Shown here piece by piece: positions 6,158-14,372 of a stretch of 64,000 nucleotides of DNA (its first letter is position 1; the number at the start of each line of letters is the position of its first letter). Under the pieces are notes generated by a model. The model searched no databases and was not told the DNA's origin. It saw only the letters and a list, made by a program, of their open reading frames with translations. Source of the DNA: Segatella copri (GTDB lineage: Bacteria; Bacteroidota; Bacteroidia; Bacteroidales; Bacteroidaceae); contig NZ_VZAD01000076.1 in assembly GCF_009495355.1 (NCBI RefSeq), positions 1 through 64,000 on the forward strand, in the 5' to 3' direction. The translations under genes and the position numbers were made by a program.

Positions 6158-7894
6158 ATGTTTAGTAAAGAAAAAATACTGTTATTGCTGCTCGTTGTGA
6201 TGTGCAACTTGGGCAGTCTGTCTGCTGTCCATGCCGCAACAGATCCAACCATGACGTCAGCTTTGAAACCATCGGGGACTTTACCCGTCATGTATGTTAA
6301 CACTCAGGATGCACAGCCTATCACTTCCAAAGAAACTTATGTGTCAGCCACGGCCTATATTGATGCCTTGGGATTGGAGGGGTATGAGAATATGGCTTCT
6401 GCAGATAAACCAGAAACCTTGATAATTAAAGGACGTGGTAACTGGACGTGGAAAGGGTTTGACAAGAAACCTTATCGCTTGAAGTTTGATAGTAAGGTGA
6501 ACCCTGTGGGTATGGTGAAGAGCAAGCACTTCTTGCTCATGGCTGGTGCCGATGATGATTTGGGTTTTCTCCGCAATCTGGTAGGCTATGAATTGAGCCG
6601 TCGTGTGGGCTTGCCTTATACCACAGATTCACAACCTGTTGAATTGGTGCTCAATGGAAAATATCAGGGCTTGTATTTCGTAACCGAAAAGATACGTGTT
6701 GATAAAAAACGAGTTAACATCGTAGAGCAGGCTGACAAGGCGACTGATCCTGAGGCTATCACGGGCGGATGGCTCGTGGAGATAGACAATTATGATACAG
6801 ATCCTCATATCAATGTGAAGTTGGGCAGCCAGAACATGGTGCTTACTTATCATACCCCAGAGGCGCTCTCCGCAGAGCAAGAGAACTATTTGCAGACACA
6901 GTGGAATGCCATCGCCAAGGCTATCTGTAGCAATAATGAAAACGATACGGAATGGGAAAAGTATGTAGACATCGAGTCTTTGGCAAAGGTGTATATCGTG
7001 CGTGAGCTGTTGCAAGATGAGGAGGGATTTCATGGCAGTTGCTATCTCTACAAGGAACAAGGTGCAGATACCAAGTGGACTTTTGGCCCTGTATGGGACT
7101 TTGGTAATGCTTATAATGAAACCAATTTCCGTCATTTTATCTTCCAGGGAGATAAGTTTGAGCAGTTTATCATTGATTGTGCCTGGAATTTTAAGCACTT
7201 CCGCGACAAGGTGAAGGAGGTATGGCAGGAGTTTTATGCCAATCAATATGCAGAGATGAACGCTTATATTGATGGTGTGGCGGCAAAGATTTCCGATGCT
7301 GCAGCTAACGACTATCTATGTTGGAAGAATAGCAGCAATGTCGCCAAGAACCAAGATGAACTGGCCAAGGCTGCCGTTTTTAAGAACTATATGCGCCAAA
7401 AGGCCACATGGCTTGTTGAGCAATGGGGTGGTGGCGAGGCTCCTTCTGACAAGATGAACATCTATGTGACTTGCGACGAGGATCGTGTGCCTTACCTCTT
7501 TGCTTGGGGTGAAGGAAACAACGGAGGATGGCCAGGCAATCAACTGACCGATACCAGGATGATAGGTGGCAAACTCTTCTATCATATTTCTTTGCCTTAT
7601 GGAACCAATATCATCTTCAGCTATGGTGATCAGGAAACGCAGACGGAGGATATCTTGAATGTGTCTCGCGACACCTATTATCGCTTCTATCAAGCTCCAA
7701 AGAGTGAGCATAAGGAGAAGAAAAATGGCCGTTTCGAAGATATCACACAGAAAGTGCTCACAGGCATCAGTGCAATAGTTACGTCAAAGCCGCAGCCCGC
7801 GAAAGCTGCGATATACAATATGAACGGACAGCGTGTGGATGATAGCTATCATGGTCTTGTCATCTGCAATGGTAGGAAATATATATCCAAATGA
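6158..7894 (+). CDS. secreted CotH-domain protein with a carbohydrate-binding-like module
   Basis: A 578-residue exported protein. A signal peptide ends near residue 27 (SAVHAA). A CotH kinase-like domain spans about residues 60-430: LKFDSK, KHFLLMAGADDD, GKYQGLYFVTEKI, GGWLVEIDNYD and the FGPVWDFGNA metal-site region, which has Gly where many family members have a second Asp. Around 430-520 lies a beta-rich module with an AWGEGNNGGWPG motif resembling starch-binding or CBM26-like domains. The last 35 residues (AIYNMNGQRVDD) resemble a type IX secretion tail. CotH proteins are atypical protein kinases in spore formers; their role in Bacteroidota is unclear. It stands alone between two terminators. 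Confidence 0.82.
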   Translation: MFSKEKILLLLLVVMCNLGSLSAVHAATDPTMTSALKPSGTLPVMYVNTQDAQPITSKETYVSATAYIDALGLEGYENMASADKPETLIIKGRGNWTWKGFDKKPYRLKFDSKVNPVGMVKSKHFLLMAGADDDLGFLRNLVGYELSRRVGLPYTTDSQPVELVLNGKYQGLYFVTEKIRVDKKRVNIVEQADKATDPEAITGGWLVEIDNYDTDPHINVKLGSQNMVLTYHTPEALSAEQENYLQTQWNAIAKAICSNNENDTEWEKYVDIESLAKVYIVRELLQDEEGFHGSCYLYKEQGADTKWTFGPVWDFGNAYNETNFRHFIFQGDKFEQFIIDCAWNFKHFRDKVKEVWQEFYANQYAEMNAYIDGVAAKISDAAANDYLCWKNSSNVAKNQDELAKAAVFKNYMRQKATWLVEQWGGGEAPSDKMNIYVTCDEDRVPYLFAWGEGNNGGWPGNQLTDTRMIGGKLFYHISLPYGTNIIFSYGDQETQTEDILNVSRDTYYRFYQAPKSEHKEKKNGRFEDITQKVLTGISAIVTSKPQPAKAAIYNMNGQRVDDSYHGLVICNGRKYISK

Positions 7895-8931: not shown

Positions 8932-11900
8932 TTACTTTGAATTTTCTCTATATTCGCTTGGAATGATACCCATTTCCTTTTTGAATACCTTCGAGAAATA
9001 CTTAGGATCGCTGAAGCCCAAAGAGTAGGCGATGCTGCTAAGTGTTTCGTCGGTATTGCAGAGCAACTCGGTGGCACGCATGATGCGGATGTGGCGTACG
9101 AAGTCGATAGGCTTCATGCCCACAGCATTCTTGATCTTGCCGTAGAGCACGCTGCGGCTCATACCCATGGCTACGGCGATGTCATCGATTTTGAGGTCGG
9201 GATTGCTCATGTTCTCATTAATGAACTGTACGATCTTCTCGGTCAGAGCGTCCTCTTCCGTCATGCGCTTATTAGTAGCCGGGCTTCTGTTGTCGCCCTG
9301 TCCGGATGCTGTCTGTGGATATTCGTGCGTGATATGGAATTCGGCACCCTCGGCTCGTTGTATCTGTTTCAGCATGTCTTGCTGCAGGGCATGACGCTGA
9401 TTGATGACAGCCTCGATGCGTCCCTTGAGGTAGGTGGCCGAGAACGGCTTGGTGAGATAACCGTCCACACCTTCCTCGAAGCCTCGCAGGTGGTCTTCCA
9501 CACTGGCTTTAGCCGACAGTACGATGATAGGAATATGGGCGGTGTTGGTGTCCTGCTTGATGTAGTGTACCATCGTGAAACCGTCCATCACAGGCATGGT
9601 GACGTCGGTAAGGATGAAGTCGGGCATCTTGTTTCTTGCCATTACCAAGCCTTCCTTGCCGTTTTCGGCAAGCAGTACATTATAGTCTGTCTTGAGGATG
9701 GTGAAGAGGAACTGGCGCAGGTCGGGGTTGTCTTCTACGACGAGGATGGTGATGTCCTTTTCTGCCTGTTCAGTTTTGTCGTCCTCTTCTGTCTCTTCTA
9801 CTTCCTTGAGATAGCCTTTGGCTGTCTTGTCGCTGATGCTGCCGTTGTTCTCGCTTGACACGAATGCCTGATCGCTTCCTTCGTCAAGATAGAAGTCGCT
9901 TCCGTTGTCAAACTTCAGCATCTTGTTGAGCATATTGAGCATCTCCTTGGCATTGCGCTGAACCATCTGCAGCAGGCTGCGGCTCTCGGTAGAGAGGTTG
10001 TCCTCCTTCTCTAACACCTCGTCTATCGGACCTCCGATGAGCGTGAGTGGAGTGCGAAGCTTGTGTGAAGCCTTGCTGAAGAACCTGTTCTTCATCTCGT
10101 TCATCTCGTGGTTGATGCGTTCCTTCTGCTGCTTGTTGTATGTGATGAAACACAAAGCCGTAACACCGGCAATGATGAGGATGATGAGCAGCTTGCCCCA
10201 GATGCTTTCCCAGAACGTCGGTTGCACGTCGAGTTCCAGCGAAGCCACGTGTTTGCTCCATTTGCCATGCGTATTGGTGGCGATGACCTTGAGCACATAG
10301 TTGCCATGTGAGATTCGGTTGAAGCCGATGCGGTTCTGTCCTCGAAGGTCGATCCATACGCCTTCGGGGGTATTTCCGTCGATGCGGTATTTATAGTACT
10401 GCTGGTACTTGCGTGTATAGTCGAGTGCGGCAAAGCTGATGGACAGGTTGCGTTTGTTGGCTGGGATGACTATCTTCTTCTGGTGCAGGATAGGTATGTA
10501 CTCGTTGCTTCCGTTGTAGTGCAGCTCAGTGAAGATAATGCGGGGCTGATAGTCGGTCTGCTTCAGTCTCGCGGGGTTGAACGTCAGGCTGCCCGTAGCA
10601 GTGCCTACTGTGATGTTGTCGGTTACAGGGTCGTGAATGGGGCGTGCCTCCGAGAAGGTCATGTTGAGGTCGAAGTCGTTGGGACCGAAGACGGTCAGTT
10701 TCCTTGTCTTGGGGTTGTATTTATCGACACTCGACTCCCTGATGAGCCAGATGTTGCCACTGTTGTCCTCTATCATGCTCTGCACATTTCCCTCGCTGGT
10801 ATTGATGAAATTGCTGTATCTCACCTTCAGATTGTCCTGCAGCAGGTTTTCGCTTGTTATCATGTCGAGGGTTCCTCCGATGCTCGATACATAGGTGTCG
10901 CCGTTGGAACGCATCAGGATGTAGTTGATGTCTGATGCGGTGAGCGATGTTGTGTCGTTCTCCCTGTAGGAAGTGGTATGGAATTGTATGTTTTTGGAAG
11001 GGTGCTTTTCTTCCTTGAAGGTGACGAGGCCGGCTGTGGTTCCGATGAGCATTTCGCCACTGGCGGTACAGGTGATTCTACGTACTTTACTGTAATGTTC
11101 CTTTGGCCATCTCAGTCCGTTACGAGAAGTAAGGAATGTGATGTTGCCCTGTGGGTCTTCACGCATAAGTGCCAAGCCTCCTCCGTATGTGGCTACCCAG
11201 ATGTTGCCCTGTCGGTCGCTCACCACATCATAGATGCTGTTGCCCGGGAGGGAATTTCTGTCGGATGCATTGTAGCAGAAATGGCGCATGGTGTTTCGGT
11301 CATACAGATACAGTCCGTCGCCGTCTGTGCCTATCCACATTCTGTCCTTCATGTCTTGATAGATGGCATAAATACCTGTGCGTGAGAAGGGTGTCTGCTT
11401 CTGGCTGATCTGTCCGTTGGACTGCAGATAACCAATCTTTTTGAAGTGGCTGTCGCTGATCTTGAGGTGTCCCGACTTGAAACCATCCCAGTGGAATCCG
11501 TTGTTAGTGTAAGCCATGGCTCTTACTTCCGATTCTCCTTCTTCGAGCTTGGTCATGTTGTAGTTGTGGAACTTGAAGTTCACCTGCGTCAGGTCGTGTA
11601 TGCCTATCAGCCAGAGTATGCCTTGATCTGAAACGACATATTTCGAGATATAAGGTATATAGAAGTTGCCTGACGAGTTGCTTTTCAGCATATAGGGAAC
11701 GAGCTTTCCCGTCTTGCGGTCGTAGTAGCTGAAGGTGCCATAGTTGGGAATAGTCCACAGCGTGCCGTGCTCGTCTTCCATGATAAAGAAGCTGTTGCTT
11801 GTGGTACGGTCGGCTGGCGTTGGAGTGTCGGCATAGAGCCATCGGGCGGTCATTGTCTGAGGATTGATTACCGTCACGCCCTGTCCTTCGGTAAATGCCC

Positions 11901-12822
11901 ATACCATGTTGTGCCCGTCTACGTAGGCTTTCTTCACTTCTGCTACGGGCTGGTTGGGATTCTGCACACTGATGACGTCGGTCTTGAATGTGCGTGGATT
12001 GTACACTACGAGTCCTATGTTGGTAGCGATAATCAACTGATAACCAGTATTCTTCAGCTCGTTGATGCGAGTGACGCCTGCTGGCATGGGAATCCAGGAG
12101 AGATGGTTTTGCTTGTCGTAGACAGCCACCTTGCCATCAGTCGTGGCGAGGAAGATGGTGTTGCCCACTTCTCTGAACCACTTGAAGGGCGTAGAGGTAT
12201 GGAAGTTCTTGCCGTAGATGAATGTTCCCTTGTCGGTGAGAATCCACTCACGGCCTTGCTTGTCTTGCTTGATAAACCATACGTTGCCGCTTTGCAGTCC
12301 TTTTTCGCCCACCTTGATGAGCTCGGGCTTCATGCTCTCTATGTCCTTTCCTTGACCTACACGAATCAGGAAGTTCTGTTTGTGAGTCGTAATCCAGGTG
12401 TGTCCATTGGCGAGTGGATATATCTGGCTCGACTCCAAATGGATGCCGAAACGCTTGCAGAGCATTGTGCCAACCTTGATAAACTGGCATTGCTCTGTAT
12501 CGAAGATGTATAGCTTGCGGTCGAAGGTGACTACCCACACATTGTTGTCTGGGCTTGGGAAGATGGCGAGTATGCGGTTGGTACTCATGATGTCGATGTC
12601 GTCGGGCTCGTCACGGAAAGTCTTGAAATGATAGCCGTCGTAATAGGACAGACCATTCAAGGTGCCAAACCACATCATATTGTCGTAGCCTTGTGCCAAA
12701 TCGGAAATGGAGTTGGCTGCAAGTCCATCGAGGATTGAAAACTTTCTGACATCGCAAAAGGGTTCTGCTGATGAAAAGATTGTTATAAATGATAGTATAA
12801 TTAAAAAATGTAAGCGTTTCAT
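8932..12822 (-). CDS. hybrid two-component regulator lacking the HATPase domain
   Basis: A 1296-residue HTCS-type regulator. Start chosen at 12822 (MKRLHFLIILSFITIFSS), which gives a clean signal peptide; the reading frame is open 54 bp further. Order: periplasmic Reg_prop beta-propellers (about 20-770; repeats such as DRMWIGTDGDGLYLYD), a Y_Y_Y domain (about 790-865), one membrane helix (about 873-892), HisKA with His920 in ASHKLRTPL, then an acidic linker of about 55 residues (about 970-1024), a receiver with phospho-acceptor Asp1073 in LTDVTMP, and a C-terminal AraC-type DNA-binding domain. The usual HATPase_c (N, G1 and G2 boxes) is absent without any frame break. Two lipoprotein genes are divergently transcribed next to it and are possible targets. 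Confidence 0.92.
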   Translation of the reverse strand: MKRLHFLIILSFITIFSSAEPFCDVRKFSILDGLAANSISDLAQGYDNMMWFGTLNGLSYYDGYHFKTFRDEPDDIDIMSTNRILAIFPSPDNNVWVVTFDRKLYIFDTEQCQFIKVGTMLCKRFGIHLESSQIYPLANGHTWITTHKQNFLIRVGQGKDIESMKPELIKVGEKGLQSGNVWFIKQDKQGREWILTDKGTFIYGKNFHTSTPFKWFREVGNTIFLATTDGKVAVYDKQNHLSWIPMPAGVTRINELKNTGYQLIIATNIGLVVYNPRTFKTDVISVQNPNQPVAEVKKAYVDGHNMVWAFTEGQGVTVINPQTMTARWLYADTPTPADRTTSNSFFIMEDEHGTLWTIPNYGTFSYYDRKTGKLVPYMLKSNSSGNFYIPYISKYVVSDQGILWLIGIHDLTQVNFKFHNYNMTKLEEGESEVRAMAYTNNGFHWDGFKSGHLKISDSHFKKIGYLQSNGQISQKQTPFSRTGIYAIYQDMKDRMWIGTDGDGLYLYDRNTMRHFCYNASDRNSLPGNSIYDVVSDRQGNIWVATYGGGLALMREDPQGNITFLTSRNGLRWPKEHYSKVRRITCTASGEMLIGTTAGLVTFKEEKHPSKNIQFHTTSYRENDTTSLTASDINYILMRSNGDTYVSSIGGTLDMITSENLLQDNLKVRYSNFINTSEGNVQSMIEDNSGNIWLIRESSVDKYNPKTRKLTVFGPNDFDLNMTFSEARPIHDPVTDNITVGTATGSLTFNPARLKQTDYQPRIIFTELHYNGSNEYIPILHQKKIVIPANKRNLSISFAALDYTRKYQQYYKYRIDGNTPEGVWIDLRGQNRIGFNRISHGNYVLKVIATNTHGKWSKHVASLELDVQPTFWESIWGKLLIILIIAGVTALCFITYNKQQKERINHEMNEMKNRFFSKASHKLRTPLTLIGGPIDEVLEKEDNLSTESRSLLQMVQRNAKEMLNMLNKMLKFDNGSDFYLDEGSDQAFVSSENNGSISDKTAKGYLKEVEETEEDDKTEQAEKDITILVVEDNPDLRQFLFTILKTDYNVLLAENGKEGLVMARNKMPDFILTDVTMPVMDGFTMVHYIKQDTNTAHIPIIVLSAKASVEDHLRGFEEGVDGYLTKPFSATYLKGRIEAVINQRHALQQDMLKQIQRAEGAEFHITHEYPQTASGQGDNRSPATNKRMTEEDALTEKIVQFINENMSNPDLKIDDIAVAMGMSRSVLYGKIKNAVGMKPIDFVRHIRIMRATELLCNTDETLSSIAYSLGFSDPKYFSKVFKKEMGIIPSEYRENSK

Positions 12823-13011: not shown

Positions 13012-13611
13012 ATGAAAAAGATTACTTATTACTTCTCAATGATATTCATGGCTGTCATGATGCTCTCGCTCACTTCATGTGATGAGGATGCCGAAATTGC
13101 CTATGCCCTCAATGGTACATGGAGGGGAAATATGCAGACGCAGCTGGATTATGAAGGACGTTATTATCAGTCTAATATGTCTGAGGTAACTTTCAATTCG
13201 GGTTACGATTCTGGCGACGGTTACTGGATAGACTATTACAGCAATGCGCCCTGGGACTATGTAGCCAACCGCATTTACTGGAAGGTGAGTGGCACAACCA
13301 TTTACATTACATTCCGTGACACACAGGAGAAGGCTGTCATCCGCAACTATCACCTTGACGACAATGGTTACTTCTGTGGCGATATAGATTTCAACAGTAC
13401 GAACAGATGGATCAGCTTCGAGTTCTACAAGGTAGATACGCCCGATTGGGACAATTATTACTGGTATGATTCCGACGGCTGGAATAATTCTTGGGGAAAT
13501 TACGGCTACGCCAAGACACGCAGTAATAACAAGGAAGAACAGCAGGAGAGTGCTCAGGAGCAGAACGACAGCACCATGCTACCGAAGCGATTCTTCCCGG
13601 AAAACAAATAA
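13012..13611 (+). CDS. small lipoprotein of unknown function (first of a pair)
   Basis: A 199-residue predicted lipoprotein; the signal peptide ends in a lipobox, LTSC, with Cys near residue 24. The mature part starts with DEDAEIAYALNGTWRGNM, reminiscent of lipocalin-like small-molecule-binding beta barrels, and is rich in Tyr, Trp and Asp. A YYWYDSDGWNNSWGNYG block near residue 148 is echoed at the N-terminus of the next protein. The tail (NNKEEQQESAQEQND) is hydrophilic. I do not recognise a named family. It sits 23 bp before a probable paralogue and 190 bp from the divergent regulator. Confidence 0.75.
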   Translation: MKKITYYFSMIFMAVMMLSLTSCDEDAEIAYALNGTWRGNMQTQLDYEGRYYQSNMSEVTFNSGYDSGDGYWIDYYSNAPWDYVANRIYWKVSGTTIYITFRDTQEKAVIRNYHLDDNGYFCGDIDFNSTNRWISFEFYKVDTPDWDNYYWYDSDGWNNSWGNYGYAKTRSNNKEEQQESAQEQNDSTMLPKRFFPENK

Positions 13612-13634: not shown

Positions 13635-14372
13635 ATGAAAAAAGTATATTCTTTGCTGACAATGGCTGTGATAGCTGCCATGTCGCTTACAATGACCAGC
13701 TGCGATGGTGATGATTATTGGTATGATCCTTATGGCTGGTACGACCATTATGATGATTGGGGATGGAGCAACAATGATTGGAATAATGGTTGGCAAGGAG
13801 GTTCGCAGAATAATGGACTTGTTGATATGGCACGGTTGCTTACAGGCGAATGGTATGGACCAGTAACCTATTCTTATCTTTCAGATGATGGGCAGTCACG
13901 ACAGACTAATGAGTTCTATGCCGATATGAAGTTCTTCCAATATGCTAACACTCGTGATGCTTTGAGTGGAGAGGGCGTGGAGACTGACTATAAGTATAAC
14001 GATGATGGTTCTGTCGCGGATCAACAGACCTTGGAGTTTAAATGGTATATTGATGATAATTACGATATTTATATCCAGTATAAGAACTCTGGGGCTACGT
14101 TTGTCATGGACCATGGCTCTTCACAGGCAGGCTTCCACTTAGGGGCAGAAAAGGGATATGACGTGGATACTTTCTGGGGCTATATGATAGGTACTGGTAA
14201 GGTGAAGGGTGATGTGATACATATTGACTTAAAGCGTGTCAACCCAACCAGTCAGGCCAAGGCCTTCGGTTCTTCTAAAACCAATGAGAAGACCATTAAG
14301 AAGTCGTTTGGCATGGGTGCGACCATCAAGCCTCTCAAGGCAGACTCTTCTCGACTGAATAATCGGAGATAA
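13635..14372 (+). CDS. small Trp/Tyr/Asp-rich lipoprotein (second of a pair)
   Basis: A 245-residue predicted lipoprotein with lipobox MTSC near residue 23. Right after the lipidated Cys comes a low-complexity stretch rich in D, W, Y, G and N (DYWYDPYGWYDHYDDWGW and on), then a GEWYGPVTY segment matching the GTWRGNM start of the upstream protein and a predicted beta-rich domain. The C-terminus (KSFGMGATIKPLKADSSRL) is basic. Likely paralogue of the 13012 product and cotranscribed with it. Function unknown; surface exposure is possible but not shown by the sequence. Confidence 0.75.
   Translation: MKKVYSLLTMAVIAAMSLTMTSCDGDDYWYDPYGWYDHYDDWGWSNNDWNNGWQGGSQNNGLVDMARLLTGEWYGPVTYSYLSDDGQSRQTNEFYADMKFFQYANTRDALSGEGVETDYKYNDDGSVADQQTLEFKWYIDDNYDIYIQYKNSGATFVMDHGSSQAGFHLGAEKGYDVDTFWGYMIGTGKVKGDVIHIDLKRVNPTSQAKAFGSSKTNEKTIKKSFGMGATIKPLKADSSRLNNRR

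Follow-up and report, generated by a model that had tools for sequence, protein, structure and literature searches.

The 64,000-nucleotide stretch of Segatella copri DNA analysed here (the window; NCBI RefSeq assembly GCF_009495355.1, contig NZ_VZAD01000076.1, positions 1 to 64,000) encodes a hybrid two-component system (HTCS) regulator from which the ATP-binding catalytic domain, HATPase_c, is missing. Loss of this domain is inherited and has more than one origin, and regulators without it probably work by removing phosphate or switching shape, not as kinases. In Bacteroides, HTCS proteins form one of the main classes of regulator for polysaccharide-use genes (PMC11253607). The frame runs uninterrupted on the minus strand, which the initial annotation had left unstated, from 12822 down to 8932, and contains the following parts, including a HisKA dimerization and histidine phosphotransfer (DHp) domain and a helix-turn-helix (HTH).

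8932..12822, minus strand: HATPase-less hybrid two-component regulator, 1296 aa (open frame and Pfam)
10423..12750, minus strand: periplasmic sensor of Reg_prop propellers, approximately residues 25-800 (Pfam Reg_prop, E = 4.7e-24, five stretches)
10225..10404, minus strand: Y_Y_Y domain, residues 807-866 (Pfam, E = 5.9e-8)
10135..10194, minus strand: transmembrane helix, about residues 877-896 (hydrophobic run in the translation and a model helix running into the DHp)
9910..10095, minus strand: HisKA, the DHp helical hairpin, residues 910-971 (Pfam, E = 1e-9, and two long model helices)
10063..10065, minus strand: His920 (ASHKLRTPL), phospho-acceptor position
10060..10062, minus strand: Lys921, one residue after the His (H+1), replacing the catalytic acid
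10051..10053, minus strand: Thr924 (H+4), the HisKA phosphatase position (role from PMC3510030)
9754..9906, minus strand: acid-rich linker in the place of HATPase_c, residues 973-1023 (no Pfam match)
9415..9747, minus strand: receiver domain with intact active site, residues 1026-1136 (Pfam Response_reg, E = 3.8e-24)
9604..9606, minus strand: Asp1073 (TDVTMP), receiver phospho-acceptor (translation and alignment)
9529..9540, minus strand: AHIP, residues 1095-1098, where most HTCS have S/CHIP (receiver-HTH inhibitory contact; motif from PMC11253607)
8944..9177, minus strand: AraC-type HTH_18, residues 1216-1293 (Pfam, E = 4.1e-20)

The layout of an HTCS, with periplasmic sensor, membrane helix (known here from the hydrophobic run and the model helix only), HisKA, receiver and AraC-type HTH in one chain, is found in this protein; since HATPase_c is absent, it represents a variant derived from the HTCS rather than a canonical member. 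An AlphaFold2 model of the cytoplasmic part from residue 880 (43-row alignment, mean predicted local distance difference test score, pLDDT, 79.6; predicted template modelling score, pTM, 0.47) places a DHp hairpin continuous with the membrane helix first, followed by the receiver and then the HTH. Between HisKA and receiver lie only ∼50 acid-rich residues, close to the acidic stretch of about 55 described in the initial annotation, and pLDDT falls below 50 at residues 973-1017, a segment that may be read as disordered in the model.

No match to any HATPase family is listed by Pfam for the protein at E values up to 1; a control HTCS from the same genome (L009) gave HATPase_c at E = 3e-25. For 64 HATPase-bearing HisKA-receiver proteins the catalytic segments were combined into a family-specific profile; it recovers its own 64 sources at E ≤ 3.5e-35, and its best match among 75 HATPase-less proteins has E = 0.35. 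The initial annotation, which had described an intact frame devoid of HATPase_c with His920, Asp1073 and the AraC domain in place, is borne out on these points by the translation, Pfam and the profile. It had suggested a domain search for a divergent HATPase_c between HisKA and receiver, and such a hidden domain is ruled out by Pfam, by the profile and by the model, in which the linker is unstructured and of low confidence.

Of the nine HisKA matches above the Pfam cut-off in the source genome, only that of the window gene lacks an adjoining HATPase_c match, and a tenth, sub-threshold HisKA match has one beside it. The genome contains 20 HATPase_c matches, none of them on contig C45. Provision of the domain by a neighbouring gene is likewise ruled out, as the HTCS catalytic profile finds none in 373 frames around 43 loci of the window's kind (group 1, below). 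Autophosphorylation of the protein, which the initial annotation had denied, is very unlikely with HATPase missing.

Distribution and origins of the gap

Continuous HisKA-to-receiver matches too short to hold a HATPase domain were detected at E ≤ 1e-60 in at least 128 of 398 genomes of the genus, using a 12-row alignment of HisKA, linker and receiver (A2) as query; in this and the order-wide search the best six candidates per genome were scored, so that counts are lower bounds. HTCS proteins are modelled as self-phosphorylating, and such regulators are therefore unlikely to work as modelled. In the search for related loci the alignment gave matches where the window protein alone gave none. Across the order, a continuous match at E ≤ 1e-45 was found in at least four of 393 genomes, of which two belong to other genera.

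Two kinds of protein make up most of the genus matches. Group 1, to which the window protein belongs, comprises at least 45 matches in at least 44 genomes (311-420 bits, frames of 1129-1383 residues), and the remaining matches, at 205-243 bits, have frames of ∼500-880 residues (group 2) apart from L091, which has 1292; the groups were separated by frame length plus two named exceptions. Linker length is bimodal in 139 distinct HisKA-receiver proteins of the loci retrieved, being 34-77 residues in 75 (44 of group 1, several with frames cut by locus ends, 30 of group 2, and L091) versus a median of 208 in 64. In an alignment of 18 proteins the catalytic domain is removed and DHp helix 2 retained. 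Group 2 (L073-L090, L092 and others) is frequent in the genus and constitutes a second HATPase-less set with a different sensor: in the 19 members inspected, HisKA leads directly to the receiver behind one common type of N-terminal part, and the three scanned by Pfam all have a Peripla_BP_4 sensor together with HisKA, receiver and HTH.

The gap is a settled form, as the initial annotation had supposed. At E ≤ 1e-200, matches occur in 13 of 100 genus genomes, the window's own included, and all 12 of the other relatives (36-58% identical) have the gap. The count of orthologues that had also been proposed gives the same picture, since the cytoplasmic parts of group 1 contain HisKA, receiver and HTH in 43/43 and HATPase in 0/43 by Pfam (41 of the 45 genus-search matches plus two further records, window included). 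An assembly error or recent deletion is ruled out by these relatives with the identical gap. A decaying or misassembled gene is accordingly a most improbable explanation: one group-1 relative (L019/L101, genome G077) does contain a single in-frame internal TAG, but the 43 gapped proteins come from separate records, and the close pairs tested are under purifying selection that is weakest in the linker.

A quick tree built from HisKA, receiver and HTH implies at least four changes in the HATPase state, one of which depends on a weak node (Shimodaira-Hasegawa-like approximate likelihood ratio test, SH-aLRT, 55) that joins L077 and L092 to the HATPase-bearing L188 and L002. A single loss was rejected on this tree: with every HATPase-less protein constrained to the same clade, the approximately unbiased (AU) test gave p = 6.3e-6. 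HATPase-bearing proteins with frames of 1440-1503 aa (L127, L131, L132, L133 and L134, for example) surround group 1 on the tree. More than one loss may have occurred within group 2, since L077 and L092 branch apart at the weak node. The propeller protein L091 (contig C4 of genome G152) shows a further, separate loss in which His-Asp is kept at the active site, and is perhaps a young case.

Residues kept and lost around the DHp

Loss of the catalytic domain is accompanied by a selective change beside the phospho-acceptor. The His itself is present in 74/75 HATPase-less and 63/64 HATPase-bearing proteins, and the H+4 Thr and the receiver Asp and Lys are present in every member of both sets (75/75 and 64/64). 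The acid at H+1 is found in 63/64 HATPase-bearing versus 10/75 HATPase-less proteins, the latter comprising 0/44 of group 1, 9/30 of group 2 and L091 (1/1). Counted on a tree from which the residue had been left out, H+1 changes 12 times over a tree length of 24.9 in the HATPase-less set versus three times over 52.6 in the HATPase-bearing set; the H+4 Thr changes in neither, and frequent changes at H-1 to H-3 are seen in both. One HATPase-bearing protein, L141, has Gln-Gln where His-Glu is expected.

The ratio of nonsynonymous to synonymous substitution rates (dN/dS) was estimated for 12 close group-1 pairs, all outside the window's subclade (see below), with L100 and L069 each in two pairs, several synonymous rates (dS) above 1, two pairs partly saturated and a slightly different receiver boundary in the last two. 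Values were 0.01-0.07 for the DHp (11 pairs with a value), 0.01-0.08 for the receiver (11 pairs), 0.04-0.25 for the propeller part (12 pairs) and 0.10-0.70 for the linker (10 pairs), where constraint is weakest. Because the DHp is constrained as strongly as the receiver, it is no relic in group 1 outside the subclade.

Among HisKA proteins, kinase but not phosphatase activity depends on the acid, and phosphatase but not kinase activity on the Thr/Asn (Willett and Kirby, PMC3510030). The DHp of EnvZ or NtrB alone suffices for phosphatase activity, and in EnvZ the His aids this activity without being essential (PMC3510030). DrBphP, in which the H+1 acid is missing, is a phosphatase found in nature (PMC8292422). 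Loss of acid and catalytic and ATP-binding (CA) domain, with retention of the Thr, mostly of the His, and of the receiver chemistry, is thus the pattern expected of a kinase-dead, phosphatase-competent DHp. Our tentative preference, drawn from sequence and from analogy with these systems, is that the DHp may act as a ligand-gated phosphatase on its own, externally charged receiver.

The class of hybrid regulators to which the gene belongs has dropped the ATP-binding catalytic domain more than once and, in most members, the acid next to the His as well, leaving a membrane-anchored, presumably dimeric DHp hairpin, a loose linker, an intact receiver and an AraC-type HTH. Under this proposal, the receiver would be charged externally, with acetyl phosphate or a different kinase as donor, and the ligand state of the sensor, relayed through the DHp helices, would decide whether that phosphate stays. 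HTCS receivers do autophosphorylate in vitro from the small donor phosphoramidate (PAM; PMC11253607), and in the genome of the window the acetate kinase and phosphotransacetylase genes (ackA and pta) adjoin on contig C15. The phosphatase activity, phosphate source, ligand and target genes of the window protein are all putative. Such natural sensor-DHp-receiver proteins without a kinase offer a clean test of the DHp's own function, and if acetyl phosphate charges them, control of glycan genes would respond jointly to an external sugar and to how central carbon metabolism stands. The wider proposal, that Prevotella-group bacteria have repeatedly turned self-phosphorylating glycan sensors into ligand-gated phosphatases with acetyl-phosphate-charged receivers, the window's subclade perhaps moving towards a phosphate-free switch, we consider rather unlikely.

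Phosphorylation in trans, raised in the initial annotation, would make the protein a slave output channel whose receiver (or His) is charged by another HTCS or histidine kinase. The receiver is intact, and HisKA and receiver are also matched by four HATPase-bearing frames (914-1403 aa) of the genome; phosphotransfer to the receiver is possible. The route through His920 is disfavoured, since a partner CA domain should need the acidic H+1 residue, which is gone (Lys921; acid in 0/44 of group 1). In the 373 frames around the 43 loci, HTCS-derived profiles, which other kinase types could escape, detected no additional gene of HTCS-like HisKA, receiver or catalytic-domain type, and the large sensor domain of the protein itself speaks against a pure slave. 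Overall this arrangement appears improbable.

The window's subclade and the proposed phosphatase

A number of observations weigh against the phosphatase proposal. Ten of the 75 HATPase-less proteins still hold the H+1 acid, and the H+4 Thr is as invariant in the HATPase-bearing set, so that its retention alone could be structural; the case for a phosphatase therefore rests on the contrast with H+1. The CA domain greatly boosts the phosphatase activity of EnvZ and NtrB (PMC3510030), and the natural phosphatase DrBphP, which lacks the H+1 acid and has no detectable kinase activity, has Glu at H+4 and keeps its CA domain (PMC8292422).

Other such observations concern the five-member subclade of the window protein (with L011/L093, L012/L094, L013/L095 and L112). 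According to Gao, Wu and Stock (PMC11253607), HTCS proteins have an S/CHIP-D-K contact that keeps the HTH inactive before phosphorylation. The motif was counted by alignment, the D being placed at a distance of 39 from the K, as deduced from the numbering in PMC11253607; a K-requiring pattern had failed in 37/64 HATPase-bearing and 2/75 HATPase-less proteins. It is whole in 39/39 group-1 proteins outside the subclade, 23/31 other HATPase-less proteins (62/75 in total) and 45/64 HATPase-bearing proteins, and in 0/5 subclade members. The S/C is missing in four of the five, the site reading AHIP in the window protein and L013/L095, NNIP in L011/L093, NHLP in L112 and SHIP in L012/L094, and in all five the Asp lies one residue later than usual; the window protein has Glu at the Asp position, Asp one residue later, and the Lys.

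Measured against the propeller, the DHp of the subclade has also evolved at a higher rate (median ratio 0.81 versus 0.46), 0.81 being reached by none of 359 pairs from the rest of group 1 matched for propeller distance; for the receiver the ratio is 0.52 versus 0.34, reached by six of the 359. The subclade DHp dN/dS, computable for two of five pairs with near-saturated dS above 1, is 0.37 and 0.18. L011/L093 has Asn in place of the His; the window protein keeps His, Thr, receiver Asp and receiver Lys.

These features fit a switch independent of phosphate, in which ligand would shift the DHp helices and thereby alter how far apart or how mobile the two HTH domains are, the DHp serving as a rod for dimerization and transmission. 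Deviations from S/CHIP-DK have been tied to phosphorylation-independent DNA binding (PMC11253607). The subclade deviates from it, with the Asp out of register in 5/5, and both the faster DHp and receiver and the lost His of L011/L093 agree with such a switch. So do three proteins of the window's own genome (L003, L004 and L006 on contigs C78, C20 and C56; ∼790-830 aa) in which Reg_prop, Y_Y_Y (below the Pfam cut-off in two) and AraC-type HTH occur with no HisKA or receiver match, apparently one-component versions of the same sensor. A pure rod should, however, allow drift, and the receiver Asp and Lys and the H+4 Thr are universal in the 75, as is the His but for one subclade member; the inhibitory motif is whole throughout group 1 outside the subclade, and even the shifted Asp might still make the receiver-HTH contact.

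Faster DHp evolution and the altered contact motif therefore make the phosphate-independent switch nearly as likely as the phosphatase for the window protein; it is a possible reading in its own right, and the lead of the phosphatase is small. Ligand-driven conformational signalling alone, the second suggestion of the initial annotation, is thus possible and has been strengthened for the subclade. A phosphatase-only DHp, and the widespread and repeated loss in the genus, were absent from its readings.

Gene neighbourhood and known systems

Gene clusters around the 43 group-1 loci, named by Pfam from one representative each, include glycoside hydrolase (GH) families GH3 (18 loci), GH57 (12), GH43 (six) and GH28 (five) and pectinesterase (six), none of which occurs in the subclade stretches inspected. 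Divergent from the window gene lie two small lipoprotein genes, which are candidate targets and nothing more.

13012..13611, plus strand: divergent small lipoprotein, cluster 15, in 4/5 subclade loci; putative target
13635..14372, plus strand: second small lipoprotein, cluster 11, in 5/5 subclade loci (Lipocalin_4, E = 0.0086, below the Pfam cut-off)

Elsewhere in the window, positions 6158-7894 encode a CotH-kinase-type protein, with neighbours that we take to be TrpB-like and glutathione-peroxidase-like.

Among known systems, group 2 presumably resembles HTCS of the BT1754 type, which have a periplasmic-binding-protein sensor. It shares with them Peripla_BP_4, HisKA, receiver and HTH in the three members scanned, but has no HATPase, and its sensor is unlike that of the window protein. 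Bacteroides HTCS combine sensor, membrane helix, HisKA, receiver and AraC-type HTH in one chain as group 1 does, whereas group 1 has neither HATPase_c nor the H+1 acid and the subclade has in addition an altered S/CHIP-D-K.

No account of HATPase-less HTCS proteins was found in the literature covered, including the available parts of PMC3404733, PMC10269533, PMC5706477 and PMC11784079; most subscription journals and all supplements lay outside its scope. The nearest report seen is that of BT4236, which likewise departs from the canonical HTCS phosphorelay and has a non-consensus contact motif, but is defined by Gln in place of the phospho-His, HATPase loss not being mentioned in the available parts of the paper (PMC11253607).

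The EnvZ and NtrB DHp fragments are, like the window protein, HisKA DHp domains without CA, and act as phosphatases, but they are laboratory truncations acting on separate regulators (PMC3510030). DrBphP of Deinococcus radiodurans resembles the window protein in that the H+1 acid is replaced and kinase activity lost, a phosphatase role for the window protein being suggested by analogy; DrBphP differs in its own CA domain with a changed N box, its H+4 Glu and its separate response regulator (PMC8292422). The pseudokinases RocA (PMC7028121) and DivL are also kinase-dead kin of sensor kinases, but these act on a separate partner kinase (CovS and CckA, respectively), and RocA keeps a CA-like domain.

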